64,000 nt of DNA, from NCBI RefSeq assembly GCF_030553305.1, contig NZ_JARRAH010000002.1:62001-126000 (forward strand). The letters run 5' to 3'. Shown in pieces: positions 40,587-61,466 of this stretch (the first letter of the stretch is position 1; each line of letters opens with the position of its first letter). The notes below the pieces were generated by a model, which made no database searches, was not told the DNA's origin, and worked only from the letters and a program-made list of their open reading frames with translations. Position numbers and translations under genes: made by a program. The stretch is from Halomarina ordinaria. GTDB lineage: Archaea; Halobacteriota; Halobacteria; Halobacteriales; Haloarculaceae.

Positions 40587-40651
40587 TGGGGGACTTTCAC
40601 CGACTGCCAATAAAGGGATGTCGCTTCGTTCGCTATCTTAGAACATGTGTT

Positions 40652-43983: not shown

Positions 43984-45096
43984 TCAGTCGTCGTCAGACG
44001 GTCGCTCCTCACCACTCATCGACTCCCGATTGACCTCATCGGATTCGCCCCACCCGAGTCGATCACCGAGTGAGATGACACCGTTCGGGAGCAACAACGC
44101 GATCAGTACGAGTGCGATCCCGTAGACAACTGTATCGAGCCCGGGAATATCGGGGAACGAGACCCGAAGGGCCTCGCTCAATGGGAACACGAGGAACGAG
44201 CCGATGATGGTGCCTGGAACCGACCCGACACCACCAATCACCGATGGCAGCAGTATCTCTACGTTGCGAGTCAGACCAAAAACGGTCGACGGTCGGATGA
44301 TCTCTACGTACATACTCCAGAACGCGCCACACCACGCCGTAAAGAACGCCGAAGTACCGATCGCGAACATCTTGTACCTGAAGGGGGAGATGCCAAGGCT
44401 GGCGGCTGCGTCCTCGTTTTCTCGGATAGCGAAGAGATAGTACCCGATCTGGGATCGCTTGATTAGCCACGCCACGACTGTAACGACCAGGAGGAACGAC
44501 AGGATGAGATAGTAGTAGGAATTGGGCTCACGGAACTGCATCGCGACAAGGCCGAACTCCGCCCCGTAGTCCCCCGGGAACGGTCGGTAGATGCCGACCG
44601 CCGCACCGAACTCCTCCATATTCCGGACGACAACCTGCAGGAGGAGGGCGATGGCGAACGTCGCTAGCGCGAAGTAGTGACCTCGCAAGTCGTACCGGAA
44701 ATTCAGAAAGCCGACCGCGAGTCCAATGACCCCGGCGACCAGGGCACCGACCAGTAACCCGATCCAGGGATTGATCCCGAACGCGACGCTGAGCTTGCTG
44801 GTGACGTACGCTCCAACCCCGAAGAACGCGGCGTGTCCGAACGAGAAGTAGCCGGTGTAGCCCGACATGATGTTCCATGCCTGACCGGCGGTCGCGTAAA
44901 CAAGCGTCACAATCAGGACATTGACACTCAGGAAGGCACCGAGACTGAACCCGAGGATGGAGACACCGAGGAGCTGTGGTAACGCCGCCAGAAAGGCGAA
45001 TCCGACGACTAGCTTTACCGTCGCTCCGTAGGGGGTACCGTTCAAACGGCTGTACGTGTCCCGGGCTCGAGCGAACGATGCTCGGTCCGACGTCAT
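43984..45096 (-). CDS. livM: Branched-chain amino-acid-type ABC permease (LivM)
   Basis: A 370-residue membrane permease of the HAAT family with about 9-10 hydrophobic segments and the LivM hallmark GQAWNIMSGYTGYFSFGHAAFFG (as separate blocks AGQAWNIMSGYTG and FSFGHAAFFG). The C-terminus is hydrophilic and acidic. It pairs with LivH, whose stop overlaps its start by 4 bp. Liv-type systems also move amides, urea and heterocyclic or aromatic acids, so the substrate need not be an amino acid. Confidence 0.93.
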   Translation of the reverse strand: MTSDRASFARARDTYSRLNGTPYGATVKLVVGFAFLAALPQLLGVSILGFSLGAFLSVNVLIVTLVYATAGQAWNIMSGYTGYFSFGHAAFFGVGAYVTSKLSVAFGINPWIGLLVGALVAGVIGLAVGFLNFRYDLRGHYFALATFAIALLLQVVVRNMEEFGAAVGIYRPFPGDYGAEFGLVAMQFREPNSYYYLILSFLLVVTVVAWLIKRSQIGYYLFAIRENEDAAASLGISPFRYKMFAIGTSAFFTAWCGAFWSMYVEIIRPSTVFGLTRNVEILLPSVIGGVGSVPGTIIGSFLVFPLSEALRVSFPDIPGLDTVVYGIALVLIALLLPNGVISLGDRLGWGESDEVNRESMSGEERPSDDD

Positions 45097-46031
45097 CGTG
45101 AGACCTCCTCCGCCCCGAACAGACCGGTCGGTTTGACGTACAACAACACGACGAACATCCCGAAGATAACGATCTCGTATACTGTTCCCGGGAGGTAGTA
45201 GCTCCCGTACACCTCTATGAGCCCGATGACGAGTCCCCCGACGAGCGCACCAGGGAACGAGCCGAGACCGCCCAAGACTACGATGACGAACGCCTTCACG
45301 AGGTAGGTCTCACCAGCAAATGGGTCGACTGGTGAGAACAGAACGATGGCCCCACCGCCAAGACCGGCCAACGCAGCCCCCAGTCCGAAGGTTAGATGAT
45401 CGATTCGAGGAACGTTGATACCCATGTACCACGCAGCGTCGCGGTTGTCTGCGGTCGCGCGGAGCGCCCGTCCGAGTTTCGTGTAATAGAGGAAGGCCCA
45501 GCACGCAACGATCGACAGGAGGGCGATGACGAGGGCGTATAGCTGTGCTCTGGGGATACTCGCCCCGAGGACCTGATAGTTACCGAGCTGGATCCCCAGC
45601 GAGCGAGAATCGGCGCCGAACGCGATTTCCAGTAGCGCAATGATGATGAACGAGATGCCGAGCGTGACGATGAACTGATTTTCCTCGGGTTTCTCGATAA
45701 TCGGCTCGATCGTTAGCACGCTCAACGCGACCCCGAGGACGAACAGTAACACGACGCTGACGATAATCGTGAGGAATGGAGACACTCCAAACGTCGACGA
45801 AACCCACCACGAGGAGAACATACCGAGGACGAGGAACGAGCCGTGGGCGAAGTTCACGATATCCATCACACCGAAGATCATCGTGAGTCCCAGTGCGGCC
45901 AGGGCATAGATTCCCCCCAACAGGAGCCCGAACACTAACAGCTGAAGTAAGACGGGGTTGAGACCTATCAAATCACCGAATAATTCTCGAAGCGGCTCAA
46001 GCACCCCGCTCTGTACGGCAAGATGTAACAT
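45093..46031 (-). CDS. livH: Branched-chain amino-acid-type ABC permease (LivH)
   Basis: A 312-residue membrane permease with about 8 hydrophobic segments and the LivH motif GGIYALAALGLTMIFGVMDI (about residue 38). It forms the heterodimeric channel with LivM; both genes are coupled by a 4-bp overlap. The binding-protein gene lies 55 bp upstream on the same strand, so livK-livH-livM form one operon. Confidence 0.93.
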   Translation of the reverse strand: MLHLAVQSGVLEPLRELFGDLIGLNPVLLQLLVFGLLLGGIYALAALGLTMIFGVMDIVNFAHGSFLVLGMFSSWWVSSTFGVSPFLTIIVSVVLLFVLGVALSVLTIEPIIEKPEENQFIVTLGISFIIIALLEIAFGADSRSLGIQLGNYQVLGASIPRAQLYALVIALLSIVACWAFLYYTKLGRALRATADNRDAAWYMGINVPRIDHLTFGLGAALAGLGGGAIVLFSPVDPFAGETYLVKAFVIVVLGGLGSFPGALVGGLVIGLIEVYGSYYLPGTVYEIVIFGMFVVLLYVKPTGLFGAEEVSR

Positions 46032-46086: not shown

Positions 46087-47379
46087 TCAGAACTGCGGAC
46101 TTGTCTGTGCGTACTCTTCCGGGAACACGACGTTCGCTTCCTGGTCCTGAACTTGGTGCATCGGGGCGAGACCGTTCTCGTTTTCTCCATCGTCTTGGAA
46201 CGTAATCGGCCCCATCGCAGCCGGGTGGTCTTCGACAGTAATGTTCTGGAGTGCACTCTGGATGTCACCCGGATCGGTCGAGCCAGCCTCTTCGATTGCG
46301 TTCGCAATGACGATAGTGCTAGCGTAACTCATCGAGGTGTGAATCACCTGTAACGGGTCACCGAACTCCTCCTCGTAGTCAGTGAAGATGGTCTCGGTCC
46401 AGTCGAGCGTGTGATCGAAGTCGTAGTTGTTCCCGAACCCACCCTCGACGAACTCCCCGATTTCCGAGATGACCTGTTCGGAGGTGAACGTCGGGGTCGA
46501 ACAGCCCGTGAGCAGCGATGGCCTGTAGTCAACGTTCTGCAGACTGTTTGCAAGCATGATACCACCGTTTCCGTAGCCGACGAACACGATAGCGTCGGGA
46601 TCGTTTTCTCTGGCCCTCGTGGCTTCGGTGTCGAGGTTCGACTGGTCAGCGGAGTAGGCGTCGGCGAACGCTATCTCCACATCGTTGTCCGGAAGTGCAC
46701 TCTGGAGTGTCTCGTTGATAGACTGGCCGAACGCCGTGTCGAGGTAGACGATTCCGGCAGTGTCCATCGTCTGGTCGTTCGAGCGCGCGACTTCAGGCAT
46801 GAACTCTGCGTAGTTCTGCGCGAACCCCGTTGCGTTGGGAGAGACACGGTAGACGTACTCTAGCTGGTTCTCTTGAAGAATCCGGTTAGCGACGGAAACG
46901 TCGATGAGGTGGGGGACTTGCTCGCGCTCGGCGATCTGAGCTGCAGACAGGGTCACCGGAGAGGAGTAACAGCCAGTGATAGCGACCGCTCCGGCTTCGA
47001 TGAGTTGTTGTTCGACTTCGCCCCCGAGCTCCTGAGTCCCCTCGTTATCGCCCCGCTCGACGGTGAGTGTTGCACCGTCGAGACTGGGGATACCTCCGTC
47101 GTCGAATCCCGGGACGACACCCCCCTGGTTGATGTGGGTCACGGCCAATTCGACGGCGCGCGCCATCGCACTTCCTGCCCTCGATAGATCCCCCGACAGT
47201 GGGTGGTTCGCCCCGATGACGATTTCGTCCGAGCTACTCGAGGAACCCCCACCGTTGCTTCCGTTCGTGGAATTGTCCCCTCCGCCAGCACAACCCGCTA
47301 GCCCGACGAGACTACCGGCACCGACCGTTGCGATGAACCGACGTCTACTGGTTTCCGTGAAATTGCTATCGCTTGCCAT
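46087..47379 (-). CDS. livK: ABC substrate-binding lipoprotein (LivK type)
   Basis: A 430-residue receptor of the periplasmic-binding fold type I. The leader has a twin-arginine signal (SRRRFIATVGAGSLVG) ending in a lipobox (LAGC, about residue 29), then a Ser/Gly/Asn-rich linker. The binding domain starts at EIVIGANHPLSGDLSRAG. It should capture a small molecule outside the cell and deliver it to LivHM. ATG 47379 is about 31 nt from a TATA box read on the minus strand at 47410-47419. Two FAD/PrpD gene pairs lie on either side of the operon, so the ligand is likely their substrate or its precursor. Confidence 0.92.
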   Translation of the reverse strand: MASDSNFTETSRRRFIATVGAGSLVGLAGCAGGGDNSTNGSNGGGSSSSSDEIVIGANHPLSGDLSRAGSAMARAVELAVTHINQGGVVPGFDDGGIPSLDGATLTVERGDNEGTQELGGEVEQQLIEAGAVAITGCYSSPVTLSAAQIAEREQVPHLIDVSVANRILQENQLEYVYRVSPNATGFAQNYAEFMPEVARSNDQTMDTAGIVYLDTAFGQSINETLQSALPDNDVEIAFADAYSADQSNLDTEATRARENDPDAIVFVGYGNGGIMLANSLQNVDYRPSLLTGCSTPTFTSEQVISEIGEFVEGGFGNNYDFDHTLDWTETIFTDYEEEFGDPLQVIHTSMSYASTIVIANAIEEAGSTDPGDIQSALQNITVEDHPAAMGPITFQDDGENENGLAPMHQVQDQEANVVFPEEYAQTSPQF

Positions 47380-47409
47380 GGATTGCTGTGTCACGACCTT
47401 AGTCGGATA

Positions 47410-47490: not shown

Positions 47491-48990
47491 ATGTTCGTTC
47501 GTAATGTCGACCCAGAATTGGTCGACTGGGAATCGGAGACGGACTTCATCATCGTCGGTGGGGGAGGATGTGGCTTATCAGCCGCAGCGACCGCCGCTGC
47601 TCACTGTGATGTAACACTTCTCGAGAAAGCCGACCGGGTCGGCGGGAAAGCGCGTGTCGCCACCGGGCAAATCTGTGGAGTCGGCTCGTCACTCCAACAC
47701 GAACTCGGTATCGACGATAGCGCGGAGGCGTTCTACGAGGACCTCCTAGTCCAGCAGACCGAGACATCCGCTGAGCGCTACACCCTCAACCACGACCTCG
47801 TCACGACCGTTGCCGGCCGTTCGGGAGAGACGCTCGACTGGCTTATGTCAGAGGTCGGTGCGGGCCTGACGCTCCACACCGGCCGGTTCGAGATGGCTGG
47901 CCATCGCGTCCATCGGACGCACTATCCCGTCCGCGCCGACGGAGTTATTCCACGAGCAGGCCAGCCAGTCACCGATGCACTCCATGAAACTGCTCTCGAC
48001 CGCGATGTCGATATCAGAACCGAATTCCCCTGCGACCAACTAGTGCTCGACGAGGAGACGGGACAGATTATCGGTGTCGCCTCCAAAGAGAATCCGAGCG
48101 CTGTCCCGCGTCGTCAGTCAACAATCATGATACGGGCTGAGCACGTCCTGCTGGCCTGTGATGGGTTCGCAGCTAATCCAGAACTGGTCGCCGAGCGCCT
48201 CCCGGAGATCGCCGACCTGGACTACTGGGGGACCCGCGAGAACACGGGGGATGCGCTCCGCATCGCCGAGGAACTCGGTCTTCGCCTCGACGAACCGTTG
48301 TACGACATGCACGGCCCGTTTACCGTCCCGGAGGGCGTCTACCTCCCGAACGAACTCGTCAAGGCCGGCTCTATCATCGTCAACGAGGACGCAGAACGCT
48401 TCATGGACTGCGGGAACGTCCCCTACCGGATGATGGACATGCACATCCTCGACCAGGAGAGCTCGACCGGGTACCTCGTCCTCGACGAGTCTATCGTCGA
48501 CTTGTTCATTGATGAACCGCTCACGACCCACCAGTTCTCGTTCCTGCTCGACGAGGACTGTTTCGACGTTTCGGACTCGGTGGCGGCGGTCGCTGACCGC
48601 TACGGTCTCGACGCCAACGACCTCGCCCGCACTATCGAGTCGGTCAACCGAGCCGCCCGCGACGACGACGCCGAGGTCCCTTATGGCCGGGCGTACCCCC
48701 ACAATCTCGCGCCGCCGTTCTACACGGCAAAGATACGGCCGATGTACGTCAAGGCGCGACAGGGCATCGTAGTCGACGAGCGGATGCGGGTCGTCCGGGA
48801 GGACGGGTCGGTCATCGAGAACCTTTACGCGGGGGGAAACGCCTCCGAGAGTCTGGAGGCCGGAGACCCCAACGTCTACATCCCGGGGATGGACCTCATG
48901 ACGGCGCTCACCGAGGGTCACTTAGTCGGCGAGTTCGTTGGCAAATCGGTCGCCGGGGCTGCAGGCGAGGACACGGAGGGACGGGCGTGA
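47491..48990 (+). CDS. FAD-dependent dehydrogenase, fumarate-reductase flavoprotein type (second copy)
   Basis: A 499-residue homologue of the flavoprotein at 42028-43458. FAD motif FIIVGGGGCGLSAAATAAA lies at about residue 18, VGGKARVATGQICGVG follows, and VIENLYAGGNASESLEAGD is near the C-terminus. It likely oxidises or reduces a carboxylate with a neighbouring C-C bond. The stop overlaps the GTG of the MmgE/PrpD gene (GTGA). The gene order and overlap mirror the first copy, pointing to duplication of the whole pair. ATG 47491 is preferred. Confidence 0.9.
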   Translation: MFVRNVDPELVDWESETDFIIVGGGGCGLSAAATAAAHCDVTLLEKADRVGGKARVATGQICGVGSSLQHELGIDDSAEAFYEDLLVQQTETSAERYTLNHDLVTTVAGRSGETLDWLMSEVGAGLTLHTGRFEMAGHRVHRTHYPVRADGVIPRAGQPVTDALHETALDRDVDIRTEFPCDQLVLDEETGQIIGVASKENPSAVPRRQSTIMIRAEHVLLACDGFAANPELVAERLPEIADLDYWGTRENTGDALRIAEELGLRLDEPLYDMHGPFTVPEGVYLPNELVKAGSIIVNEDAERFMDCGNVPYRMMDMHILDQESSTGYLVLDESIVDLFIDEPLTTHQFSFLLDEDCFDVSDSVAAVADRYGLDANDLARTIESVNRAARDDDAEVPYGRAYPHNLAPPFYTAKIRPMYVKARQGIVVDERMRVVREDGSVIENLYAGGNASESLEAGDPNVYIPGMDLMTALTEGHLVGEFVGKSVAGAAGEDTEGRA

Positions 48991-50321
48991 GTGCCGAGAC
49001 GGACCTCGCGACGTTCGCGGCCGACCTCACATGGGCGGACATCCCCGAGACCGTCCGTTCGCACGCCTGCCTCGTACTCGCCGATACCGTAGCAGCGACG
49101 GTCGGCGGGTCTACCGACCCCGACGTCCGAGGTTTCGTCGGGGAGGCCTGCGAGCGCACGCCCGGCCGAGCGACCGTCATCGGTCACGGCGCGACCACGT
49201 CGCGGTACCTCGCGGCGTTCGCCAACGGTGCCGCGGGGACGGTGCTCGAACTCGACGAGGGCCATAAGTTCGCTGCGGGCCACCCGGCGATACACGTCCT
49301 CCCGGCGCTGCTCGCCGACGCCGAGGTCGATGCCGGGAGCGGCCGTGACCTGCTCGTCGCGTTCGTCGTGGGCTACGAGGCCGCCGCCCGGGCCGGACGC
49401 GCGTGCTACCCGCTCGCGGCGGGCTACCACCCACACGGTGTCTGGGGACCGGTCGGCGCCGCCGTCGGCGTCGCCGTCCACCGCGGATACGACGCCGAGG
49501 ATATCCGGACAGCAGCGCGCATCGCCGCCAAGGATGCCCAGCACACGCTGATGGCGGCGGCGACCGAGGGTGCGACCGTCCGCCAGGCGTTCGCCGGCGG
49601 TGCGAACCTCTCGGGGCTCCTTGCCGCCGACCTCGCTGCTGCGGGGTTCTCCGGTGTCGAGGACGGGGTCGCCAGACACCTCGATCTCGCCGCTGACGGC
49701 GAGGTCGACCGCGAGGCGCTCGGTGCCGAATTGGGCGAGCGCTGGGACGTCACGCTCGGATATTTCAAACGCCACGCAGCCTGTCGCTACACTCACCCCA
49801 CCATCGATGCGGTCGAGGCCCTCCTCGACGATGGCCTCGACCCGGCAACCGTCGAGCGTGTCCGTGTCGAGACGTACCCGACGGCGGCCGGTCTCACCGA
49901 GACTCACCCACGCAACGCGCTCCAGGCGAAGTTCTCCGTCCCGTTCGCCGTCGCTACCAGACTCGTCCACAGCACCGCCGGCAAGGCGGCGTTCGTCGAC
50001 GACGCCATCGACGACGCGGCGCTAGCGCTCGCCGACCGGGTCGAGGTGGTCGCCACCGACGAGATGCGCGATAGACTCCCCGACCGGCGGTCCGCGCGGG
50101 TCACGATGAGAACGACCGACGGCACCTCGGTCACGGAGGAGGTGGTCCACGCGGCCGGCGGAGCCGAGCGACCGTACGACGAGGCGGCTATCCACGAGAA
50201 GTTCGATGCCCTCGTCCGGCCGGTGCTCGGCGACACGCGAAGAGACACGCTGTGGGCCGCGACGCGCGAGGGGCCGGCCGACCCGCAGTCGCTCTGTGCC
50301 CTGCTCCGGGCGGACGACTGA
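48987..50321 (+). CDS. MmgE/PrpD family protein (second copy)
   Basis: A 444-residue homologue of the first MmgE/PrpD protein. Conserved blocks occur in the same order: NGAAGTVLELDEGHKFAAGH (about residue 75), AAGYHPHGVWGPVGAA, then FKRHAACRYTHPTIDAVEAL (about residue 258). The start is a GTG overlapping the flavoprotein stop. The aligned EGH and CRYTHP segments probably form the active site. Family chemistry is dehydration, decarboxylation or epimerisation of polycarboxylates. It is convergent with livF. Confidence 0.88.
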   Translation: MSAETDLATFAADLTWADIPETVRSHACLVLADTVAATVGGSTDPDVRGFVGEACERTPGRATVIGHGATTSRYLAAFANGAAGTVLELDEGHKFAAGHPAIHVLPALLADAEVDAGSGRDLLVAFVVGYEAAARAGRACYPLAAGYHPHGVWGPVGAAVGVAVHRGYDAEDIRTAARIAAKDAQHTLMAAATEGATVRQAFAGGANLSGLLAADLAAAGFSGVEDGVARHLDLAADGEVDREALGAELGERWDVTLGYFKRHAACRYTHPTIDAVEALLDDGLDPATVERVRVETYPTAAGLTETHPRNALQAKFSVPFAVATRLVHSTAGKAAFVDDAIDDAALALADRVEVVATDEMRDRLPDRRSARVTMRTTDGTSVTEEVVHAAGGAERPYDEAAIHEKFDALVRPVLGDTRRDTLWAATREGPADPQSLCALLRADD

Positions 50322-50374: not shown

Positions 50375-51139
50375 TCAGTTGATGCCGAGGTACAGTTCGA
50401 TGAGTTCGTCCTCCTCGGCGAGGTCAGCGGGCGGACCGTCGAACTGCGTACGCCCCTGTGCGAGAATATAGACGTGGTCTGCGACCCGCAGCGCGGTCTT
50501 GACGTTCTGCTCGACCAGCACGACCTGGACGCCGCTGTCGACGAGTGTCTGGACCTGGTCCATCACGTCGTCTACTAGCGCCGGCGCGAGGCCTGCCGAT
50601 GGTTCGTCGAGGAGGAAGACATCCGCGCCAGAGACCATCGCGCGGGCGAAACTCAGCATCATCTGCTGGCCCCCCGAGAGCGCGCGGGCTTGTGCCGCCG
50701 TCTTGTCGCTGAGCACGGGGAACGCATCGAGCGCATCGTCTATGCGCCGCCGTACGACGTCGTCGTCGTCGACCGAGTGGCCCCCAAGCAGGAGATTCTC
50801 CCGGACCGTCATCGTCGGGAACAGCCCCCCGTCCTGTGGGACGGTGATGATACCAGCGTCGACCATGTCGCTGGCGTTGGCGTCGGTCAAGTCACGATCG
50901 CCCATCCGCTTGCGCCCGCTCCAGAGGGGGAGTTTGCCGCCCATAGCCTTGATGAGTGTCGACTTCCCCGATCCGTTGGGACCGAAGATACAGGTGACCC
51001 CCTCGTGGCTCCGCGCCGACACGCCGTGGATGATCTCGTGGTTCCCATACCCCGTCACCACGTCCTCGACGACGAGTCGGTCGGCCCGCGGGGACACGGC
51101 GTCGCCGTCGTCGGCCGTCGGGTCCGGGTCGACGCTCAT
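50375..51139 (-). CDS. livF: ABC transporter ATPase (LivF type)
   Basis: A 254-residue ATPase. Walker A GPNGSGKST lies at about residue 53, the signature ALSGGQQMM near residue 150 and Walker B VFLLDEPSAGLAP follows. It has the short form typical of LivF. The start overlaps the stop of livG by 4 bp. It powers the LivHM permease encoded 4-6 kb away. The physical gap between livK-H-M and livG-F is filled by the second flavoprotein-PrpD pair. Confidence 0.92.
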   Translation of the reverse strand: MSVDPDPTADDGDAVSPRADRLVVEDVVTGYGNHEIIHGVSARSHEGVTCIFGPNGSGKSTLIKAMGGKLPLWSGRKRMGDRDLTDANASDMVDAGIITVPQDGGLFPTMTVRENLLLGGHSVDDDDVVRRRIDDALDAFPVLSDKTAAQARALSGGQQMMLSFARAMVSGADVFLLDEPSAGLAPALVDDVMDQVQTLVDSGVQVVLVEQNVKTALRVADHVYILAQGRTQFDGPPADLAEEDELIELYLGIN

Positions 51140-51876
51140 CCGAGCACCTCCTCGATATCGCTCTCGGCGCCGAGGTACGCATCACGGACCCGCGACTCCG
51201 CGGTCACCTCGTCGAACGTCCCCTCTGCGATGATGCGCCCCTGATCGAAGACGCTGACCGTGTCCGCAAACTCCCTGATGAGGTCCATGTCGTGTTCAAC
51301 GATGACGAACGTCGTCCCACGGTCGTTCATCGCGAGCAGTCGGTCGAGGATGCGCTTCTGGAGGGCGGGGTTGACGCCCGCAGTCGGTTCGTCGAGGAGG
51401 ATGCACTTCGGGTCGAGCATGAGCAGGCGCGCCAGTTCGAGGAGTTTCTGTTGTCCGCCGCTCATCTCGCTGGCCTCGTCGTCCGCGAGGTGGGCGATGT
51501 CGAGGAACTCCAGTATCTCGCCGGCGCGTTCGCGCTTCTCGGAGCGGACCCGAAGTCCCTTCGAGTGGACCGCGAGAAGGTTCTCTCGGACGGTCAGACT
51601 CTCGAACGGCGAGACGATCTGGAACGTCCGTGCTAGTCCCTTGCGCGCGATCTCGTGGGAGGCGAGCCGCGTTACGTCTTCGCCGTCGAACGTCACCGTC
51701 CCCCCGTCTGGCTGGTAGAATCCGGTGACCGTGTTGAAGAACGTCGACTTTCCACTGCCGTTCGGCCCGATGATGCCCCGCACTTCGCCGTCCTTGACGG
51801 AGAGGGAGATACCGTCGTTCGCGACGAGCGCGCCGAACGTCTTGCGCAATCCGTCGGTCTCAAGAAGCGGTGCCAT
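51136..51876 (-). CDS. livG: ABC transporter ATPase (LivG type)
   Basis: A 246-residue ATPase. Walker A is in GIIGPNGSGKSTFFNTVTGF (about residue 34), the signature EMSGGQQKLLELARLLM follows, Walker B is CILLDEPTAGVNP and the H-loop is FVIVEHDMD. The C-terminal GRIIAEGTFDEVTA is typical of LivG. ATG 51876 is the natural start; the frame upstream has no family similarity. It forms an operon with livF. Confidence 0.93.
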   Translation of the reverse strand: MAPLLETDGLRKTFGALVANDGISLSVKDGEVRGIIGPNGSGKSTFFNTVTGFYQPDGGTVTFDGEDVTRLASHEIARKGLARTFQIVSPFESLTVRENLLAVHSKGLRVRSEKRERAGEILEFLDIAHLADDEASEMSGGQQKLLELARLLMLDPKCILLDEPTAGVNPALQKRILDRLLAMNDRGTTFVIVEHDMDLIREFADTVSVFDQGRIIAEGTFDEVTAESRVRDAYLGAESDIEEVLG

Positions 51877-52054
51877 TGACCAGGGTGATGCAAGGTACCA
51901 ACTTAAGCGTTGGTACACAGTTGCACGCACAGTCACTTCGCCTGGGGCGCGATTCACTCGACAGTGGAGAATCCCCTAACGATGCACAACGCATCCGCCT
52001 GCAGGCACTCCGCCGTGGCGAAACACACAACGTGTCTTACTGCGATGTGGTGGC

Positions 52055-53228: not shown

Positions 53229-54233
53229 GTGACGACCGACGAAAATCGGACGGGGGTATTGTTCGCCCTGCGTGACGACCCAGCGCTGGCGGCGCGGGCG
53301 GAGGCGCTCGGCTACGACTCCGTGTGGGCGGCCGAGGGTCAGGGGATGACCGCGTTCGGGAAACTGGAGCGCTGGGCAGTCTACACCGATGAGATTCGTC
53401 TGGCGACGGGTATCGTCAACGTGTTCTCGCGGACGCCCGCGGCGGTGGCAGCCGCGACGGCGACGCTCGATCGGCACTCGGGCGAGCGAGCCGTCCTGGG
53501 CTTAGGGGTCGCTCACCCGGGCGTCGTCGAGACGTTCCACGGCGTGGAGTTCGACCGACCGCTCGCCCGAATGCACGAGTACGTCGAACTCGTCCGACGG
53601 TACCTCCGTGGGGAGGCGGCGGGGTTCGACGGTGAGTTCTATACCCCCGAGCGGACGAGTTTCTGGGCGGCGTTCGAACCCGAACGGGCGTCGGTCCCCA
53701 TCTATAACGGGGCGCTCGGCCCGGCGAACGTCCGGCTGACCGGCGAGGTTGCCGACGGCTGGCTGCCGAACCTCTACCCCCACGGGCGCTTCGAGGAGGC
53801 GATGGGATGGCTCGCCGAGGGGGTGGACCGTGCTGACCGCGACCTTGAGGACATCGACGTGGCGATGTACGTGTTGACGTCGGTCCACGAGGACCCGTCC
53901 GTCGCATACGAGGCGGCGGCCTACCACGTGGCGTACTACCTCCGGGACGTCCCCGGCTACTACGGCCGGGTCGCCGAGGAGGCGGGATACGGGGCGGCGG
54001 TCGAGGCCGCCTGTGACGCCGAGACCACCGAGGAAGCCGCACGGCGTCTCCCCGAGACGTTCCTCGACGTCGTCGGCCTGGTGGGCACGCCAACATCGGT
54101 GCGCGAGCGACTCGAGGCCATCCGTGAGATGGGTGTCGACCTGCCCGTCGTTCGCGCGCCGGCGGGGACCGACGAGGCATGGGTCGAGCGGACGCTGGAG
54201 GCGTGCGCGCCGGGCGAGGCGAACACGCAGTAG
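53229..54233 (+). CDS. LLM-class flavin/F420-dependent oxidoreductase
   Basis: A 334-residue TIM-barrel oxidoreductase of the luciferase-like monooxygenase class. LAARAEALGYDSVWAAEG (about residue 22), then LATGIVNVFSRTPAAVAAA and LGLGVAHPGVVE are typical of its F420-dependent branch (Mer/Fgd/ADH-like). In haloarchaea these enzymes use F420 to oxidise alcohols or reduce C=C and C=N bonds. The GTG at 53229 is the preferred start. It heads a plus-strand run that continues through the amidase, amidohydrolase and aconitase-like genes. Its step may be reduction of an imide or ring double bond; this is inference. Confidence 0.88.
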   Translation: MTTDENRTGVLFALRDDPALAARAEALGYDSVWAAEGQGMTAFGKLERWAVYTDEIRLATGIVNVFSRTPAAVAAATATLDRHSGERAVLGLGVAHPGVVETFHGVEFDRPLARMHEYVELVRRYLRGEAAGFDGEFYTPERTSFWAAFEPERASVPIYNGALGPANVRLTGEVADGWLPNLYPHGRFEEAMGWLAEGVDRADRDLEDIDVAMYVLTSVHEDPSVAYEAAAYHVAYYLRDVPGYYGRVAEEAGYGAAVEAACDAETTEEAARRLPETFLDVVGLVGTPTSVRERLEAIREMGVDLPVVRAPAGTDEAWVERTLEACAPGEANTQ

Positions 54234-54304
54234 CGTTCGACCCCCCTGGTGCGCAGGTGACGAAATTTTATACCGGTGGCCACCCCAGCCGTGTGTGAGA
54301 GATA

Positions 54305-54973
54305 ATGACAGAGCGCATCTGGGAAGATCTGCTTTCCGAACGTGACAAGCAGGTCATCACAGCAGCCGGCTACGACAAGGAGGGTGCTTCCTCGTGGGAG
54401 TCCCGCGGCCTCGGGGAGAATCCGCTGGTCCTAGTCATCGACATGCAACGCCTTATCGTCGGCGACGACATCCCCATCCTCGAGGCAGTCGAGGAGTATC
54501 GGACAGCAATGGGCGAGGTCGCGTGGAGCGCCATCGACCACATCGAACCGTTTCTGGCGTTCGCCAGGGACCGGGGGCTGCGGGTGGTATACAGCCGGGT
54601 CGTCCCGTCGAGTTACGACGACCCCAACCACCCGGATCTCGACATCGTCGACCCAGTCGCTCCCGAGGCCGACGAGACAGTTATCGACAAGACATACGCA
54701 AGCGTCTTCTTCGACACCGAACTCGACGACCTGCTGCGTGATGGCGACCACGACTCGCTCATCGTCGTCGGCAACTCCACGAGCGGCTGCGTCCGTGCGA
54801 CGGTCGTCGACGCGACCCAGTATGGTTACGGCGTCGTTCTGCCTCAGGAGTGCCTGTTCGACCGTATCGAGGCTTCGCACAAGGTCGGCCTGCTGGATAT
54901 GTGGATGAAATACGCCGAGGTGCTAGAGACCGCCGAGGTCCGTGACTACGTCGACAGCCTGGTGTCCGCATGA
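54305..54973 (+). CDS. Isochorismatase-fold amidase (N-carbamoylsarcosine amidase type)
   Basis: A 222-residue cysteine hydrolase. The catalytic triad can be placed: Asp46 (VLVIDMQ), Lys129 (IDKTYASVFF) and Cys162 (GNSTSGCVRAT), the last following the usual cis-peptide region. The family hydrolyses N-carbamoyl amino acids, nicotinamide, maleamate and other half-amides. Its stop overlaps the ATG of the cyclic amidohydrolase (ATGA at 54970-54973). In cyclic-imide and hydantoin pathways such a pair performs ring opening followed by hydrolysis of the resulting half-amide or carbamoyl acid. Confidence 0.9.
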   Translation: MTERIWEDLLSERDKQVITAAGYDKEGASSWESRGLGENPLVLVIDMQRLIVGDDIPILEAVEEYRTAMGEVAWSAIDHIEPFLAFARDRGLRVVYSRVVPSSYDDPNHPDLDIVDPVAPEADETVIDKTYASVFFDTELDDLLRDGDHDSLIVVGNSTSGCVRATVVDATQYGYGVVLPQECLFDRIEASHKVGLLDMWMKYAEVLETAEVRDYVDSLVSA

Positions 54974-56361
54974 GCCACGACCTCGTCATTACCGGCGGCA
55001 CCGTCGTCACGCCCGAACACGGTACGTTCGAGGCCGACGTGGCCGCGACCGACGGCGTCGTCAGTGCCGTCGCGCGGCCGGGGAGCCTCAACGCCGACCG
55101 TGAGATAGACGCCACGGGTAACTACGTCCTCCCGGGTGCCATCGACCCCCACACCCACCACGGGATCTACCGGACGCTGGCAGAGGACGCCGAGAGCGAG
55201 TCGCGGTCGGACCTCGTCGGCGGCGTCACCACCATCGGGAACTACTTCCGGCGTCCCGGCTCCTACGCGGAGATAATGGACGACTACTTCGCACAGGCCG
55301 AACCCAACTACTACCACGACTACTTCTTCTCGCTGGGCTTGCTCTCGTTCGAGCACGTCGAGGAGATACCGCATATCGTCGAGGACCTAGGCATCACCTC
55401 GTTCAAGTGGTACATGAACTACAAGTATGCCGCCGAGGAGAAGTTCGGCGTCGACTGTCAGATGCTCGACGACTTCGGCGACACGTTCGTCCGGTCGCTC
55501 GCAAAGCAGGACGTCCCGACGACGCTCGGCTATCACTCCGAGAACGTCGAGATAACGAACTCGCTGGGCGACAACCCGTACTTGGAGGTCGAACGCGACG
55601 AGGACCAAGAGTACCGCGACTACGACGCCCTCGTCAAGCAGTTCCCGGACTACGCGGAGGCCCAGAGCATGATTGCGGGGGCCGCGCTGGCGCGCCAGCA
55701 CGGTTATGGCGAGAACTTCTACGCCGTCCACGTCTCCTCGGGGCGGACCGCCGACGAACTCGCCACGCTCAAGGCAGCGGGCTGGGGGTTGACCGGCGAG
55801 ACCTGCACCCACTACTTGACGCTCACCAGCGAGGAGGCCGACGAGCGCCACAACGTCAATCCGCCAGTCCGCTCGGCGACCGACCGCGAGACACTTTGGA
55901 GGCGGGTCGCCGACGGCACAATCTCCTGTATCGGTACCGACCACTGCTGCAACATGGCCGACGAGAAGATCGGTGATGACGTCCCCGACAGCCTTCCAGG
56001 GTTCCCGAGCACGGCAACGATGCTCCCGCTCGTCCTTTCGGAGGGGGTCGACCGCGGGCGTATCTCGCTGGAACGGGCCGTCGAGGTGACCTCGACGAAC
56101 ACGGCGAAGGCGTTCGATCTCTACCCGAAGAAAGGCACCGTCCGCGTCGGCAGCGACGCCGACCTCGTGGTCGTCGACCTCAAGGAGACGAAGACGGTCA
56201 CACCCGAATTACTGAAGAGTGCCGCCGACTACTCGCCGTACGACGGCCGCGAGGTGACGGGATGGCCGACTCATACCGTTGTGAAGGGCCAGGTGGCCTA
56301 CGAACGTGGCGAGGTCGTCGGCGACCCCGGCCACGGCACGCACATTGACCGCCCCATCTGA
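54970..56361 (+). CDS. Cyclic amidohydrolase (dihydropyrimidinase/hydantoinase/imidase type)
   Basis: A 463-residue amidohydrolase with a complete binuclear metal site: His61-x-His63 (DPHTHHG), Lys146 (SFKWYMNY, likely carboxylated), His189 (GYHSENVE), His254 (YAVHVSSGRT) and Asp324 (GTDHCC). It belongs to the D-hydantoinase/dihydropyrimidinase group, whose members also open succinimide- and maleimide-type rings. The 4-bp overlap with the isochorismatase-fold amidase indicates consecutive steps. Downstream genes handle CoA esters and hydration, so the ring carbon skeleton probably ends as a dicarboxylate. Hydantoins or dihydropyrimidines are alternatives. Confidence 0.92.
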   Translation: MSHDLVITGGTVVTPEHGTFEADVAATDGVVSAVARPGSLNADREIDATGNYVLPGAIDPHTHHGIYRTLAEDAESESRSDLVGGVTTIGNYFRRPGSYAEIMDDYFAQAEPNYYHDYFFSLGLLSFEHVEEIPHIVEDLGITSFKWYMNYKYAAEEKFGVDCQMLDDFGDTFVRSLAKQDVPTTLGYHSENVEITNSLGDNPYLEVERDEDQEYRDYDALVKQFPDYAEAQSMIAGAALARQHGYGENFYAVHVSSGRTADELATLKAAGWGLTGETCTHYLTLTSEEADERHNVNPPVRSATDRETLWRRVADGTISCIGTDHCCNMADEKIGDDVPDSLPGFPSTATMLPLVLSEGVDRGRISLERAVEVTSTNTAKAFDLYPKKGTVRVGSDADLVVVDLKETKTVTPELLKSAADYSPYDGREVTGWPTHTVVKGQVAYERGEVVGDPGHGTHIDRPI

Positions 56362-56482
56362 CGATCGATCACGATAACGAGACATCAACGACCACGACAT
56401 CAATCATGTACGCCACGACACACACGCGACCGATCGACCGCGAGGCCCGTCTCCTGGGCCGCTACCGACTGCCGGAGGCCAC

Positions 56483-57709
56483 ATGAACGGCCTCGAGACG
56501 ACGATGGACGACGAGTCGGCGGGCCCACTCACGGGCCTGACGGTCGTCGAGGCGGGGACGATGATATCGGCCGGGACCGCCGGCCGGTTTCTCGCCGACT
56601 TCGGGGCTACGGTCATCAAGGTCGAACACCCCGAAACGGGCGACCACCTGCGCCAGTTCGGTCCACAGAAGGAGGGGACCGGTCTCTGGTGGAAGTACCT
56701 CGGGCGGAACAAGCAATCGGTCACACTGAACCTCGGCATCGAGGACGGCCAGGTCGTCTTTGAGGACCTCGTCTCGGAGGCCGACGTGCTCATCGAGAAC
56801 TTCCGACCGGGGACGCTCGAACGTTGGAACCTCGGTTACGACCGTCTTTCGGAGCTAAATCCGGGGCTCGTCATGTGCCGGCTCTCGGGGTTCGGGCAGA
56901 CCGGGCCGTACGCCGAGCGCCCCGGGTTCGGCACGCTCGCTGAGGCGATGAGCGGGTTCGCCTACCTCAATGGCTACTCCGACCGGGAGCCGCTGTTGCC
57001 ACCGACGGGGCTTGCCGACGGCATCGCCGCGCTGTTCTCGACGTTTGCGGTCATGTTCGCGCTCTACCACCGCGACGTCCACGGCGGCAGTGGCCAGTAT
57101 ATCGACACGAGTCTCACCGAGCCCATCTTCTCGCTGCTCGGTCCACAGCCACTACGCTACGACCAGCTCGACACGATCGAGAAGCGCTCGGGCAACCGCT
57201 CGACGTCCTCGGCCCCGCGGAACGTCTACCGCACTGGCGACGACCGCTACGTCGCCATCTCTGCGAGCGCCCAGCCGACGGCGATGCGCGTGTTCGACGC
57301 TATCGACCGGCCGGACCTGAAAGACGACGAGCGGTTCGTGGACAACGAGCGTCGACTGGAGAACGTCGACGAACTCGACGGCCTCATCCAGGAGTGGATG
57401 GATGAGCATAGCCGCGAGGAGGTGCTAGCGGCGTTCAACGACGCCGACGCGACTATCGCACCCATCTACAACGTCGAGGACATCTTTCATGACGAGCAGT
57501 ACCGCGCCCGGGACGCCGTCGTCACCGTTGAGGACGACGACCTCGGGCCGGCGCGGGTTCAGAACGCGTTTCCCCTGTTCAGCGAGACTCCCGGAGAAGT
57601 CTGCCATCTCGGGCCGGGACTCGGCAAGCACAACGAGGCGGTGTACGGCGGCGTGTTGGGGTACGACGAGGAGACTCTCGCGTCATTAGCCGAGGAGGGG
57701 GCGATCTGA
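56483..57709 (+). CDS. Class III CoA-transferase (CaiB/BaiF), second copy
   Basis: A 408-residue family III CoA-transferase. PLTGLTVVEAGTMISAGTAG and FLADFGATVIKVEHPETGD open the protein, RLSGFGQTGPYAERPGFGTL lies near residue 133. The catalytic Asp is probably in PTGLADGIAALF. Related enzymes activate citramalate, mesaconate, malate or other hydroxy acids with succinyl-CoA or acetyl-CoA. It is 121 bp after the amidohydrolase and abuts the lyase gene (stop 57709, next GTG 57710). A substituted malate is the expected acceptor in the context of the following genes. Confidence 0.9.
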   Translation: MNGLETTMDDESAGPLTGLTVVEAGTMISAGTAGRFLADFGATVIKVEHPETGDHLRQFGPQKEGTGLWWKYLGRNKQSVTLNLGIEDGQVVFEDLVSEADVLIENFRPGTLERWNLGYDRLSELNPGLVMCRLSGFGQTGPYAERPGFGTLAEAMSGFAYLNGYSDREPLLPPTGLADGIAALFSTFAVMFALYHRDVHGGSGQYIDTSLTEPIFSLLGPQPLRYDQLDTIEKRSGNRSTSSAPRNVYRTGDDRYVAISASAQPTAMRVFDAIDRPDLKDDERFVDNERRLENVDELDGLIQEWMDEHSREEVLAAFNDADATIAPIYNVEDIFHDEQYRARDAVVTVEDDDLGPARVQNAFPLFSETPGEVCHLGPGLGKHNEAVYGGVLGYDEETLASLAEEGAI

Positions 57710-58657
57710 GTGGCGCTTGACTTCCCCGAGGACGTCGCACTCGTCGAGATGCTCCCGCGCGACGGGTTCCAGCGCCTCGACGAGTTCGTCCCAACCGACG
57801 AGAAGGTCGAGATGATCGACCGCCTGTCGTCGACCGGCGTCGACGAAATCGAGTTCACGTCGTTCACCCACCCGAAGGCCGTCCCGACACTCCGTGACGC
57901 CGACGAGGTGGCCGCCCGCATCGACCGAAACCCCGACGTGAGCTACCGAGCGCTGGTGCCGAACGCGGTCGGCATGGAGCGTGCGCTCGATGTTGATGTT
58001 GATAAAGTGAACGCACTCGTTACCGTCAGCGAGAGCTACAGCCGGAAGAACCAGAACATGACCGTCGAGGAGATTCTCGACGAGGTACGCACCATCGTCG
58101 ACCTCGCCGATGGGACAGACGTCGCGGTCGAGGCCGGCGTCGGCACTAGCTTCTACTGTCCCTACGAGGGGCGCATCGCTCCCGAGGCGACGCTGGAGGT
58201 CGTCGAGGCGGCGGTCGAGGCCGGCGTCGACGAGGTGACGCTGGCGACGACGATGGGACTGGCCGACCCGAGACAGGTGACCGACCTGTTCACCACGGCG
58301 ATGGAGCGCTGGCCGGACATGGAGTACGGCCTGCATCTTCACAACACGAACGGGATGAGCCTCGCGAACACGCTCGCTGCGATGCTTGTCGGCGTCGACC
58401 GGTTCGACAGTTCCGTCTGTGGCCTCGGTGGCGGCGTCGTCCTCCCCGAGGGGATGACCGGGGTCGGCAACACGCCGACCGAGGACCTTGTCCGGATGCT
58501 CGCGGCAATGGGTGTCGAGACGAACGCGGACCCAGATCGAGTGGAGGCGGTGGCCCGCCACGTCAGCGAGGCGCTGGGGCTTGGCGCGACGAGCCACGTC
58601 CTCATGGGCGGCACCGTCGACCGGGTGCTGGAGACGGTCGAGGAGGCAAACAATTGA
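57710..58657 (+). CDS. HMG-CoA lyase-like acyl-CoA lyase
   Basis: A 315-residue TIM-barrel lyase of the HMGL/DRE family. Arg17-Asp18 (LPRDGF) and the metal-binding His209-x-His211 (LHLHNTNG) are in place, and GVGTSFYCPYEGRI resembles HMG-CoA lyase. The lyase signature GLGGCP is changed to GLGGGV: the mobile-loop cysteine of HMG-CoA lyase is replaced by Gly245. This suggests a different 3-hydroxy-acyl-CoA or malyl-CoA-type substrate. It presumably splits the CoA ester made by the preceding CoA-transferase. The start is a GTG directly after the previous stop. Confidence 0.85.
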   Translation: MALDFPEDVALVEMLPRDGFQRLDEFVPTDEKVEMIDRLSSTGVDEIEFTSFTHPKAVPTLRDADEVAARIDRNPDVSYRALVPNAVGMERALDVDVDKVNALVTVSESYSRKNQNMTVEEILDEVRTIVDLADGTDVAVEAGVGTSFYCPYEGRIAPEATLEVVEAAVEAGVDEVTLATTMGLADPRQVTDLFTTAMERWPDMEYGLHLHNTNGMSLANTLAAMLVGVDRFDSSVCGLGGGVVLPEGMTGVGNTPTEDLVRMLAAMGVETNADPDRVEAVARHVSEALGLGATSHVLMGGTVDRVLETVEEANN

Positions 58658-58718
58658 TGTCGTTTCGTACACAACGGCCACTGTTGGCCGGGCAGCAAGC
58701 GGTCACACGGATTCGACC

Positions 58719-60044
58719 ATGACTGGAAAGACATTCGCGGAGAAACAGCTCTCGGGGAAGTCCGGGCGGGACGTCCACGCCGGCGACTATGTCGAGGCGG
58801 AGATAGACGTGGCGATGGCCCACGACATCACGGGACCGCTCGCCTTCCAGACGTTCGACGAGGTGACCGGCAGTGACGGGGCACTGTTCGCGCCCGACCG
58901 AACCGTCTTCACCATCGATCACCACGCGCCAGCAGACGGCGTCCAAGCGGCGAACAACCACAACGCACTCCGGGAGTTCGCCGCCGAGCACGGCGCCCAC
59001 CAGTATGACGTCGGCGACGGCATCTGCCATCAGGTGCTCGTCGAGGAGGGCCACGTCGGCCCAGGCGACCTCGTCGTCGGTGCGGATTCTCACTCGACGA
59101 CGTACGGAGGCCTCGGCGCGTTCGGCACGGGCGTCGGCTCGACCGACCTCGGGACGGCGATGGCGACTGGCGACCTCTGGTTTCGCGTCCCCGAGACCCG
59201 GCGGTTCGAGGTCGAGGGTGACCTCCCAGAGGCCGTCTACGCCAAAGACCTCGTCCTGAAGTTCATTGGTGACGTCGGCTTCGCAGGGTGTACCTACATG
59301 GCCGCGGAGTACGCCGGGAGCACCGTCGCGGCCCTACCCCTCCACGAGCGGTTCGTGCTGGCGAATATGGCCATCGAGATGGGCGGGAAGGCGGGTATCG
59401 TTGAGCCCGACGAGCGAACCGCACGATATCTCGAGGCGCAGACGGGGCGCGCTCCAAGTACTGATGTCGACGACCCCGCGCTGCACGCCGACCCGGACGC
59501 CGAGTATGTGGACGTCCACACCTACCGGGCCGAGGAGATTGCGCCGCAAGTGTCGACGCCCTCGAACCCCGAGAACGCAGTCGACGTGGGGAAGGTAGAG
59601 GGGACCGAGATAGATCAGCTGTTCGTCGGAACGTGCACGAACGGCCGCTTCGAGGACATGCAGGTCGTCGCCGACGTCCTCGAAGGCGAGGAGATCGCAC
59701 CGAACGTGCGGATGGTCGTCGTTCCCGCTTCGGGGGCTGTCTACCAGCAGATGCTCGAGACAGGCGTGCTGACGACGTTCGTCGACGCCGGCGCAGTCGT
59801 CCAGAGCGCGGGATGTGGTCCCTGCGCGGGCTACCACCAAGGCGTCCTCGGCGACAGCGACGTCTGTCTGGCAACGGCGAACCGTAACTTCCCCGGACGA
59901 GAGGGGTCGATGAAGTCGTCGGTGTACCTAGCGAGTCCGGCGACGGTCGGCGCGTCGGCGCTCTACGGGGAAATCACCGACCCACGGCGTGTCGACACCT
60001 CGCGGTATGACGATGTCGCGCTAGCGAAGGGGGCCCGCTCATGA
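58719..60044 (+). CDS. Aconitase-family hydratase, large subunit (LeuC type)
   Basis: A 441-residue large subunit of a two-part aconitase-superfamily hydratase. The 4Fe-4S ligands are Cys306 (GTCTNGR), Cys366 and Cys369 (AGCGPCAGY). VGADSHSTTYGGLGAFGTGV is typical. The superfamily branch includes 3-isopropylmalate dehydratase, maleate hydratase, dimethylmaleate hydratase and homoaconitase. There is no isopropylmalate synthase or dehydrogenase here, so a leucine-biosynthetic role is unlikely. It is coupled to the small subunit by an ATGA overlap. Hydration of a maleate-type diacid would link the amidase and the CoA-transferase steps. Confidence 0.9.
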   Translation: MTGKTFAEKQLSGKSGRDVHAGDYVEAEIDVAMAHDITGPLAFQTFDEVTGSDGALFAPDRTVFTIDHHAPADGVQAANNHNALREFAAEHGAHQYDVGDGICHQVLVEEGHVGPGDLVVGADSHSTTYGGLGAFGTGVGSTDLGTAMATGDLWFRVPETRRFEVEGDLPEAVYAKDLVLKFIGDVGFAGCTYMAAEYAGSTVAALPLHERFVLANMAIEMGGKAGIVEPDERTARYLEAQTGRAPSTDVDDPALHADPDAEYVDVHTYRAEEIAPQVSTPSNPENAVDVGKVEGTEIDQLFVGTCTNGRFEDMQVVADVLEGEEIAPNVRMVVVPASGAVYQQMLETGVLTTFVDAGAVVQSAGCGPCAGYHQGVLGDSDVCLATANRNFPGREGSMKSSVYLASPATVGASALYGEITDPRRVDTSRYDDVALAKGARS

Positions 60045-60559
60045 GCACGGGTGATGACCCGGACCCCGCGACGCCGGCGCGCGCGTGGGTATTCGGCGAT
60101 GACATCGATACCGACCAGATCATCCCTTCGCGGTTCATCGTCTCCAGCGACCCCGAGGAGATCGCACAGCACACGTTCGAGGACCTTCGCCCCGAGTTCT
60201 CCGAGTCGGTGCGTGCCGGCGAGTTCGTCGTCGGCGGGGAGAACTTCGGTAGCGGTTCGTCGCGCGAGCAGGCCCCACTCTCGCTGCTCGGTGCCGGTGT
60301 GGCGGGCGTCGTCGCCCAGTCGTTCGCCCGCATCTTCTTCCGGAACGCAATCAATCTCGGCTTGCCGGTGCTCATCAGCCCGGAAGCCGGACGCATTCGC
60401 GATGGCGACGAGATACACATGGAACTCGACACCGGCACCATCGTCAACCACACGCGCGACGAGCGTTACGAGGCCGAACCGCTCCCTGAGTTCCTCCAGT
60501 CGATCGTCGAACGAGGGGGACTGAAACCTTACACGAAGGCCAAACTCAACGAGCAGTAA
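60041..60559 (+). CDS. Aconitase-family hydratase, small subunit (LeuD type)
   Basis: A 172-residue swivel-domain subunit. ARAWVFGDDIDTDQIIPSRF, then GGENFGSGSSREQAPLSLLG (about residue 65; GSSRE is the substrate-binding serine/arginine loop), and FARIFFRNAINLGLPVL are standard. It forms the heterodimer with the LeuC-type subunit. It is the last gene of the run that starts at 53229. Confidence 0.92.
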   Translation: MSTGDDPDPATPARAWVFGDDIDTDQIIPSRFIVSSDPEEIAQHTFEDLRPEFSESVRAGEFVVGGENFGSGSSREQAPLSLLGAGVAGVVAQSFARIFFRNAINLGLPVLISPEAGRIRDGDEIHMELDTGTIVNHTRDERYEAEPLPEFLQSIVERGGLKPYTKAKLNEQ

Positions 60560-60698: not shown

Positions 60699-61466
60699 AT
60701 GGAGATTGATCTCTCTGGTCGGACCGCGGTCGTTACCGGAGCGAGCGCTGGTATCGGACGAGCCATTGCCACGTCGTTGGCGGAGGCTGGTGGAAACGTC
60801 GTTGTCGCCGATATCGAACGAAGCACCCCACCAGATGCCGACCGAACCACCGTCGAACACATTCGGGCGATATCCGGTGAGGCCCACTTCATTGAGGTCG
60901 ACGTTGCCGATGGAGAGAGCGTTGCAGCGATGATTCGGACGGCGGTCGACCGCTATGGAGGACTGGACGTTCTTGTAAATAATGCGGGAATCTCACACAA
61001 GGGAACGATCGAGGAGACTGCCCCGACAGAGTGGCAGCGGGTGATCGATGTTAACCTCACCGGAGTATACAATGGGGTCCATCACGCTGTCGAATACCTC
61101 CGAAAGAGCCCGGCACCACGCATCCTCAATATCGCCTCACAGCTCGCCTTCGTCGCTCAGCCTCGAAAGCCGGCGTACATCGCCTCAAAAGGTGGAGTCG
61201 TCTCGCTCACGAAGTCGCTCGCACTCGACTACGCCCACGTACCGATCCTGGTCAATGCAATCTGTCCTGGTGTCGTTGAGACCGAATTGACACGTGAGGT
61301 ACTAGCAGATGAGCAACGGCGAAGGGAACTGGAGTCTTGGACGTCACTCCCATATCTCGGTCAGCCCGAGGATATCGGTAGCATGGCGACGTTCCTCGCA
61401 TCGGACTACGCCCGATTCGTCACGGGACAGCAATTCATCGTAGATGGTGGATACGTAATCAAGTGA
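60699..61466 (+). CDS. Short-chain dehydrogenase/reductase, second copy
   Basis: A 255-residue classical SDR: TGASAGIG at about residue 12, LVNNAGISHKG near 92, catalytic Ser in NIASQLAF, YIASKGG (Tyr-x3-Lys) and C-terminal GQQFIVDGGYVIK. It probably oxidises or reduces a hydroxy/keto group. It lies 140 bp after the small hydratase subunit in the same direction. Codon use is less GC-rich than in the upstream run, so it may have joined the region separately. Confidence 0.9.
   Translation: MEIDLSGRTAVVTGASAGIGRAIATSLAEAGGNVVVADIERSTPPDADRTTVEHIRAISGEAHFIEVDVADGESVAAMIRTAVDRYGGLDVLVNNAGISHKGTIEETAPTEWQRVIDVNLTGVYNGVHHAVEYLRKSPAPRILNIASQLAFVAQPRKPAYIASKGGVVSLTKSLALDYAHVPILVNAICPGVVETELTREVLADEQRRRELESWTSLPYLGQPEDIGSMATFLASDYARFVTGQQFIVDGGYVIK

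Follow-up and report, generated by a model that had tools for sequence, protein, structure and literature searches.

Several described pathways resemble parts of the gene cluster presented here. In the 2,3-dimethylmaleate branch of anaerobic nicotinate degradation in Eubacterium barkeri, a LeuCD-type hydratase (DmdAB) acts on a cis-diacid, and C–C cleavage by dimethylmalate lyase follows. The creatinine/N-methylhydantoin pathway combines the ring opener HyuAB with an isochorismatase-fold enzyme, N-carbamoylsarcosine amidase. Imide/maleamate hydrolysis comprises ring opening by an imidase and subsequent hydrolysis of the half-amide by a maleamate amidase (NicF/Ami; HxnM/HxnN in Aspergillus, PMC9304392), and the itaconate/methylsuccinate pathway (Ict, Ich, Ccl and an MmgE/PrpD isomerase; PMC12290011) is arranged around a C4-diacid core. 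Here, a presumably catabolic gene island of the haloarchaeon Halomarina ordinaria was analysed, which spans about 38.0–61.5 kb of a 64,000-nucleotide stretch of contig NZ_JARRAH010000002.1 (positions 62,001 to 126,000; henceforth called the window) and recurs in other haloarchaea. The island probably, though far from certainly, serves to take up and degrade a five-membered cyclic imide, i.e., a maleimide or succinimide whose substituent is probably hydrophobic, or which carries none.

Read from the sequence, the reactions, their order and the substrate would be as follows. A hydantoinase-fold amidohydrolase would open the imide ring to a half-amide, which an isochorismatase-fold enzyme would hydrolyse to a C4-diacid and ammonia, and a flavoprotein (FADred1) would insert a C=C bond at the stage of either the ring or the diacid. 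Hydration of the cis double bond by LeuCD would then yield a malate-type acid, a class III CoA-transferase (CaiB) would convert this acid to its CoA ester, and an HMGL-like enzyme would cleave the C–C bond to yield an acyl-CoA and a 2-oxoacid, with stereoisomers being interconverted by MmgE/PrpD proteins. A preliminary description of a seven-gene run at 53229–60559 had proposed the course from imide via half-amide, diacid and malate-type acid to C–C cleavage; this order is backed by bacterial clusters with swapped enzymes (see below), whereas the imide itself is, as before, something we infer.

All seven open reading frames of this run were found intact, on the plus strand and at the coordinates given in that description, and Pfam/NCBIfam assigned each to the family named there. 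The overlaps between isochorismatase and amidohydrolase (4 bp) and between LeuC and LeuD (4 bp) were borne out, as was the direct abutment of CaiB and HMGL. The boundary had been drawn too narrowly, as an IclR-type regulator, two MmgE/PrpD proteins, FADred1, an NTF2-like protein and a liv-type ABC transporter share the same conserved island (Table 1); FADred1, a gene present even in the minimal copy, had been missed. A curated NCBIfam equivalog cut-off was reached by none of the seven genes (0/7), and broad NCBIfam subfamily cut-offs were reached only by HMGL, LeuC and LeuD. LeuC probably starts at about 58719 (MTGKTF...) rather than at the open-frame start at 58488.

Orthologues were surveyed in 243 genomes of the same order, applying identity thresholds of ≥ 70% (amidohydrolase and LeuC), ≥ 66% (HMGL) and ≥ 58% (FADred1), and were detected in 16 genomes for the amidohydrolase, 15 for LeuC, 16 for HMGL and 15 for FADred1. 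The LeuC tiers were separated by a sharp gap, with orthologues at ≥ 70% identity and the next tier at ≤ 49%. All 15 LeuC-positive genomes also hold amidohydrolase and HMGL orthologues at the same place, which is the conserved co-occurrence that the preliminary description had suggested looking for (hypergeometric probability for LeuC and amidohydrolase 5e-23, a guide only, since it treats genomes as independent, which they are not). The seven-gene run is beyond chance. FADred1 was present in 14 of these 15 genomes as well as in G015, and was not found in G202, whose block lies on a 31-kb contig.

When the cluster proteins were mapped onto the 15 genomes and eight named plasmid loci, a recurring block was found in the 15 haloarchaeal genomes and on six named plasmids, consisting of IclR, two MmgE/PrpD proteins, the liv-type importer, FADred1, NTF2-like protein, LLM-class oxidoreductase, isochorismatase, amidohydrolase, CaiB, HMGL, LeuC and LeuD. 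The minimal copy, in Natrinema zhouii (L040), reads IclR-FADred1-isochorismatase-amidohydrolase-CaiB-HMGL-LeuC-LeuD and lies beside a TRAP transporter; therefore, these genes were considered the core. The enzyme previously listed as an F420-type oxidoreductase is indeed of the LLM family (PF00296), but its absence from the minimal copy makes it accessory. Within the sample, the block was missing from the genomes of the same genus and from nearly all of the same family, which fits gain by horizontal transfer. Cultivable Haloferax, Halorubrum and Natrinema carry it, among them Haloferax gibbonsii LR2-5 and H. lucentense.

The complete metal site reported earlier for the amidohydrolase was recovered, with all six ligands (HxH, K, H, H, D) present and invariant across orthologues, at a score of 265 against the dihydropyrimidinase/D-hydantoinase equivalog (cut-off 393). 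In the amidohydrolase tree, whose deep branches, like those of the LeuC tree, are weak, the focal protein fell into a 100/100 clade separate from 37%-identical haloarchaeal relatives, one of them XDH-linked (dihydropyrimidinase-like group), so that the grouping with pyrimidine breakdown considered in the preliminary description was not observed. Together with the gene content of the block, this placement disfavours pyrimidine breakdown as the main role. The focal clade also takes in amidohydrolases beside urocanate-hydratase-like genes. Two of these, 60–62% identical to the focal protein, directly follow such a gene (L041 13283–16392; L042 13286–16389), with an ammonia-lyase nearby and, in L041, trimethylamine methyltransferase genes; they possibly belong to a haloarchaeal degradation cluster of the ergothioneine or hercynine type.

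In the isochorismatase-fold enzyme, D46, K129, C162 and R187 are invariant in 22 sequences and correspond to the Asp-Lys-Cys triad and a carboxylate-binding Arg position, R187 being aligned with the Arg of N-carbamoylsarcosine amidase that presumably binds the carboxylate. Its top solved relatives are 4l07 and 3ot4, which we take to be maleamate amidases, and N-carbamoylsarcosine amidases. By these residues, the enzyme would be of the maleamate/N-carbamoylsarcosine amidase type of the fold.

The main rival to an imide is a ureide ring of the hydantoin or dihydropyrimidine type, which we consider unlikely. The amidohydrolase would then produce an N-carbamoyl acid, the isochorismatase would act as carbamoylase, and the other genes would process the carbon skeleton once it had been deaminated elsewhere. 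Among named families, hydantoinase comes closest to the amidohydrolase, and the solved structures nearest to its partner include N-carbamoylsarcosine amidase. A (thio)hydantoin is the likely substrate of the related amidohydrolases beside urocanate-hydratase-like genes, and HyuAB with a CSHase-type enzyme is the pattern of the creatinine pathway. However, the conserved block showed neither an aminotransferase nor an ammonia-lyase, the hut-linked clusters (L041, L042) do not contain an isochorismatase, LeuCD-type enzymes act on cis-dicarboxylates, and the substrates of MmgE/PrpD proteins likewise point to a C4-dicarboxylate.

Turning back to the imide pathway, the nearest NCBIfam model of CaiB is succinate-glutarate CoA-transferase, with a score below the cut-off. 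The enzyme next to it had been described as HMG-CoA-lyase-like, and both its family and the adjoining CaiB stand, whereas the catalytic Cys of HMG-CoA lyase is missing: the signature-loop Cys is absent in 20/20 orthologues, the catalytic Arg-Asp and the HxH metal site are kept, and the cut-off of the subfamily hidden Markov model is met. Bacterial HMGL partners of CaiB retain this Cys. A second CaiB-HMGL pair is present in N. zhouii and G150 (L138 8798–10927, L144 8483–10960), with an HMGL 68–69% identical to the focal one and no LeuCD or amidohydrolase orthologue nearby; in N. zhouii, the loop of this second HMGL likewise has no Cys, and UGSC-family and TTT-transporter genes are found nearby.

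The preliminary description had framed the cluster as haloarchaeal, but counterparts are also encoded by bacteria. A scan of genome contigs yielded at least 578 relatives of FADred1, bacterial relatives share 36–44% identity with it, and a counterpart of the cluster is common in roseobacters and other alphaproteobacteria. Gene content was determined for the 65 loci of at least 15 kb among the best 80 of these relatives; as the best 80 are those closest to a Sulfitobacter query and mutually related, the percentages are not independent counts. HyuA was found in 91% of the loci, isochorismatase and a PrpB-like lyase in 88% each, LeuC in 80%, the liv-type importer in 35% and CaiB in 8% (5/65), with an expectation of about 2–3% per 21 kb for the isochorismatase, HyuB and aconitase families (whole-genome counts, six of these organisms). 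Ring openers across clusters are of the hydantoinase fold, the PuuE/imidase fold or HyuAB, and the C–C lyase options are CoA-transferase plus HMGL, CoA-transferase plus a citramalyl-CoA-lyase-like enzyme, or a PrpB-like lyase, for the most part with no CoA-transferase beside it; most clusters retain isochorismatase and LeuCD.

Burkholderia plantarii, for instance, combines two PuuE-fold proteins with isochorismatase, LeuCD, FAD enzyme and PrpB-like lyase. In Azospirillum and Sulfitobacter, the ring opener is HyuAB instead, and the Rhodococcus cluster has an amidohydrolase of the hydantoinase fold together with CaiB and a gene resembling citramalyl-CoA lyase. In Methylobacterium nodulans and Variovorax SRS16, the FAD enzyme is surrounded by amidohydrolase, isochorismatase, two MmgE/PrpD proteins and a liv importer. 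Variovorax PDNC026 and B. plantarii share 64–75% identity in LeuC, FAD enzyme and lyase, yet have HyuAB and a PuuE-type ring opener, respectively; therefore, ring openers have been exchanged within otherwise like clusters. The hydratase position is held by different LeuC lineages, and by AcnA in Shinella. A CoA-transferase accompanies CoA-ester lyases (HMGL, or the CitE type nearest RipC/Ccl) and is mostly missing where the lyase is of the ICL/PEP-mutase family, in which the known lyases act on free acids. Three unrelated ring-opener families all adjoin an isochorismatase-fold enzyme, and this pairing, the interchangeable hydratases and the matching of CoA-transferase to lyase type therefore suggest the order imide, half-amide, cis-diacid, malate-type acid and C–C cleavage.

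An improbable alternative is that two functions lie side by side, an amidohydrolase-amidase pair scavenging nitrogen and an independent CoA-transferase/HMGL/LeuCD route for a free acid such as citraconate. CaiB-HMGL-LeuC-LeuD does occur alone on pBB2 of Cupriavidus necator, and so does CaiB-LeuCD-HMGL in Peribacillus; in Halomarina BND7, the halves are about 33 kb apart. Against this, the halves adjoin in all 15 genomes with a LeuC orthologue, matching halves made of different enzymes are joined in bacteria too, and modules may be portable yet form one pathway in this island.

As for the hydration step of the imide pathway, the Cys motifs for the iron-sulphur site are present in LeuC, whose scores exceed subfamily cut-offs but fall short of the equivalog cut-offs for LEU2 and leuC. 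Placing the hydratase in a LeuC tree, a check named in the preliminary description, set the focal LeuC in a 100/100 clade of its own, apart from the genome's other LeuC, which grouped with bacterial-type LeuC at 100/100, in a tree without DmdAB and HbzIJ maleate hydratase sequences. That second LeuC and an aconitase are encoded on the large (2.78-Mb) contig; for this reason and because of the distinct clade, leucine-pathway and aconitase roles were rejected for LeuCD. It is thus highly improbable that LeuCD is a leucine-pathway isomerase in an incidental neighbourhood, as its public annotation as 3-isopropylmalate dehydratase and a LeuD loop resembling that of isopropylmalate isomerase might suggest, given also the strict co-occurrence of LeuC with the amidohydrolase. 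The LeuD specificity loop reads SRF(I/L)V(S/L) in 20/20 orthologues, with Val as in isopropylmalate isomerase and not the Arg of homoaconitase (YLRT). A homoaconitase small subunit was rejected for this reason, and a distal carboxylate on the substrate is unlikely; the loop would argue for a substrate with a hydrophobic or no side group. Hematinic acid, a maleimide with a propionate arm whose product would resemble homoaconitate, was set aside on the same residue.

In FADred1, the positions of R402 and R544 of the fumarate reductase FccA are Tyr in 20/20 orthologues, and H365 and H504 are kept; six bacterial relatives have the same pattern, except that H365 is Tyr in two of them. A plain fumarate-reductase role was rejected, as both the Arg proton donor (R402) and the Arg clamp (R544) are replaced. 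These residues suggest a substrate other than a free dicarboxylate, such as the ring itself, whose desaturation would at the same time impose the cis geometry required by LeuCD; FADred1 probably desaturates either the ring or the diacid. The best solved relative of MmgE/PrpD protein 1 is the iminodisuccinate epimerase 2hp3 (E 3e-22), and among the conserved dicarboxylate-site residues of the family, the MmgE/PrpD proteins retain the GH-motif His and one Lys, with other His/Lys positions altered. It is plausible that the MmgE/PrpD proteins are the epimerases of the pathway, and by analogy they would link the island to C4-dicarboxylates, as this core is common to all known substrates of the family, one of whose members isomerises methylsuccinate (PMC12290011).

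Several points speak against the imide pathway. N-carbamoylsarcosine amidases are almost as similar to the isochorismatase as its top matches are, and HyuAB and hydantoinase folds act on hydantoins too. The missing catalytic Cys of HMGL would make the lyase step the weakest of the pathway, FADred1 is devoid of both Arg that clamp dicarboxylates in fumarate reductase, leaving its place in the order uncertain, and some epimerase residues are absent from PrpD1 and PrpD2.

Table 1 Features of the island in the window
Feature	Position	Strand	Remarks
IclR-type regulator	39810–40610	-	Adjoins PrpD1 or FADred1 in nearly all copies, 47–61% identity
MmgE/PrpD family protein 1, putative epimerase or other enzyme of substituted succinate	40652–42031	-	Kept in most copies
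FADred1, flavoprotein, fumarate reductase/KstD superfamily, putative C=C dehydrogenase of imide or diacid	42028–43458	-	Core gene
NTF2/SnoaL-like protein	43480–43941	+	50–61% identical orthologues beside (directly upstream of) LLM in most copies
Branched-chain-amino-acid-type ABC importer	LivM 43984–45096, LivH 45093–46031, substrate-binding protein 46087–47394	-	Kept in most copies
Second FAD oxidoreductase (KstD-like)	47494–48990	+	Counterpart absent from other copies; this position unique to window
MmgE/PrpD family protein 2	48987–50321	+	Pfam MmgE_PrpD_N/_C; conserved
ABC ATPases	LivF 50375–51139, LivG 51136–51957	-	Mapped across island copies
LLM-class oxidoreductase (F420 or FMN type)	53229–54233	+	Accessory; PF00296 E 9e-61
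Isochorismatase-fold half-amide hydrolase (putative)	54305–54973	+	PF00857
Hydantoinase/dihydroorotase-fold cyclic amidohydrolase, putative ring-opening imidase	54970–56361	+	D-hydantoinase relatives
Class III CoA-transferase (CaiB), putative activation of malate-type acid	56483–57709	+	PF02515 E 4e-114
HMGL-like lyase	57710–58657	+	Loop GLGGGVVLP; HMG-CoA lyase catalytic Cys absent
LeuC-type hydratase large subunit	58719–60044	+	Own clade
LeuD/DmdB-type hydratase small subunit	60041–60559	+	TIGR02087 above cut-off
SDR family dehydrogenase	60699–61466	+	Possibly accessory; SDRs in some copies only

In the window, the importer, the second FAD enzyme and PrpD2 lie between the NTF2-like protein and LLM. 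The window is located on contig C2 (247,471 bases) of a 3.6-Mb genome, and an Orc1/Cdc6-like open reading frame recognised by eye at 12726–13952 fits a plasmid or secondary replicon. A further catabolic stretch at 20763–37561, likewise identified by eye from translations, holds CaiB, two enoyl-CoA hydratases, two enolase-superfamily proteins, a LarA-like protein, a TAXI-TRAP transporter, an acyl-CoA dehydrogenase and an ADP-forming acyl-CoA synthetase. On a plasmid of Halomarina sp. BND7 (L037 1–16401, L137 7691–11817), three isochorismatase-amidohydrolase pairs occur in differing settings, one with CaiB and a citramalyl-CoA-lyase-like gene and one with AtuA/DUF4387, LLM and ADP-forming synthetase. 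Some haloarchaeal copies have a PrpB-like lyase with a KQCGH/KRCGH motif next to LeuD (L039 20501–21391, L056 2684–3568), i.e., the lyase type that takes the place of HMGL in bacteria.

As a tentative extension, the clusters could represent a catabolism of alkyl-substituted succinimides or maleimides in Bacteria and Archaea, with interchangeable ring openers and C–C lyases around a distinct flavoprotein subfamily, and alkylmaleimides from chlorophyll/haem breakdown as possible substrates. The tetrapyrrole link is speculation only; if true, such substrates would supply a missing step in the recycling of tetrapyrrole carbon and nitrogen. Public labels such as 3-isopropylmalate dehydratase and hydroxymethylglutaryl-CoA lyase appear wrong for this context, and identifying the substrate could give the pathway as a whole its name and set many annotations right. 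In the exchange of ring openers and lyases, nature offers an experiment on the rebuilding of pathways from different enzyme families.

The gene cluster is apparently undescribed: a literature search on such a cluster, imide hydrolysis or maleimide degradation retrieved no description of it, with most subscription journals outside its scope. Compared by description, without Dmd sequences, to the dimethylmaleate branch, the bacterial counterparts use an ICL/PEP-mutase-family lyase with a K[KR]CGH motif, whereas the haloarchaeal form uses CoA-transferase and HMGL-like lyase, and the block is devoid of nicotinate hydroxylase, enamidase and mutase genes. HyuAB lies next to an isochorismatase-fold amidase both in the creatinine/N-methylhydantoin pathway and in bacterial counterparts, but that pathway has no known use for LeuCD, FAD enzyme or PrpB-like lyase. 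With the itaconate/methylsuccinate pathway, the island shares CoA-transferase, CoA-ester lyase and MmgE/PrpD proteins, and a Ccl-like lyase is found in the Halomarina and Rhodococcus variants; ring opening and amidase are absent from that pathway, which has a CoA-ester hydratase and an acyl-CoA dehydrogenase instead of LeuCD and FADred1. Imide/maleamate hydrolysis has the same first two steps as proposed here, and HxnM is related to the fold family of the PuuE-like ring openers in B. plantarii; unlike there, the haloarchaeal opener is of the hydantoinase fold, and genes for hydration and C–C cleavage come after.

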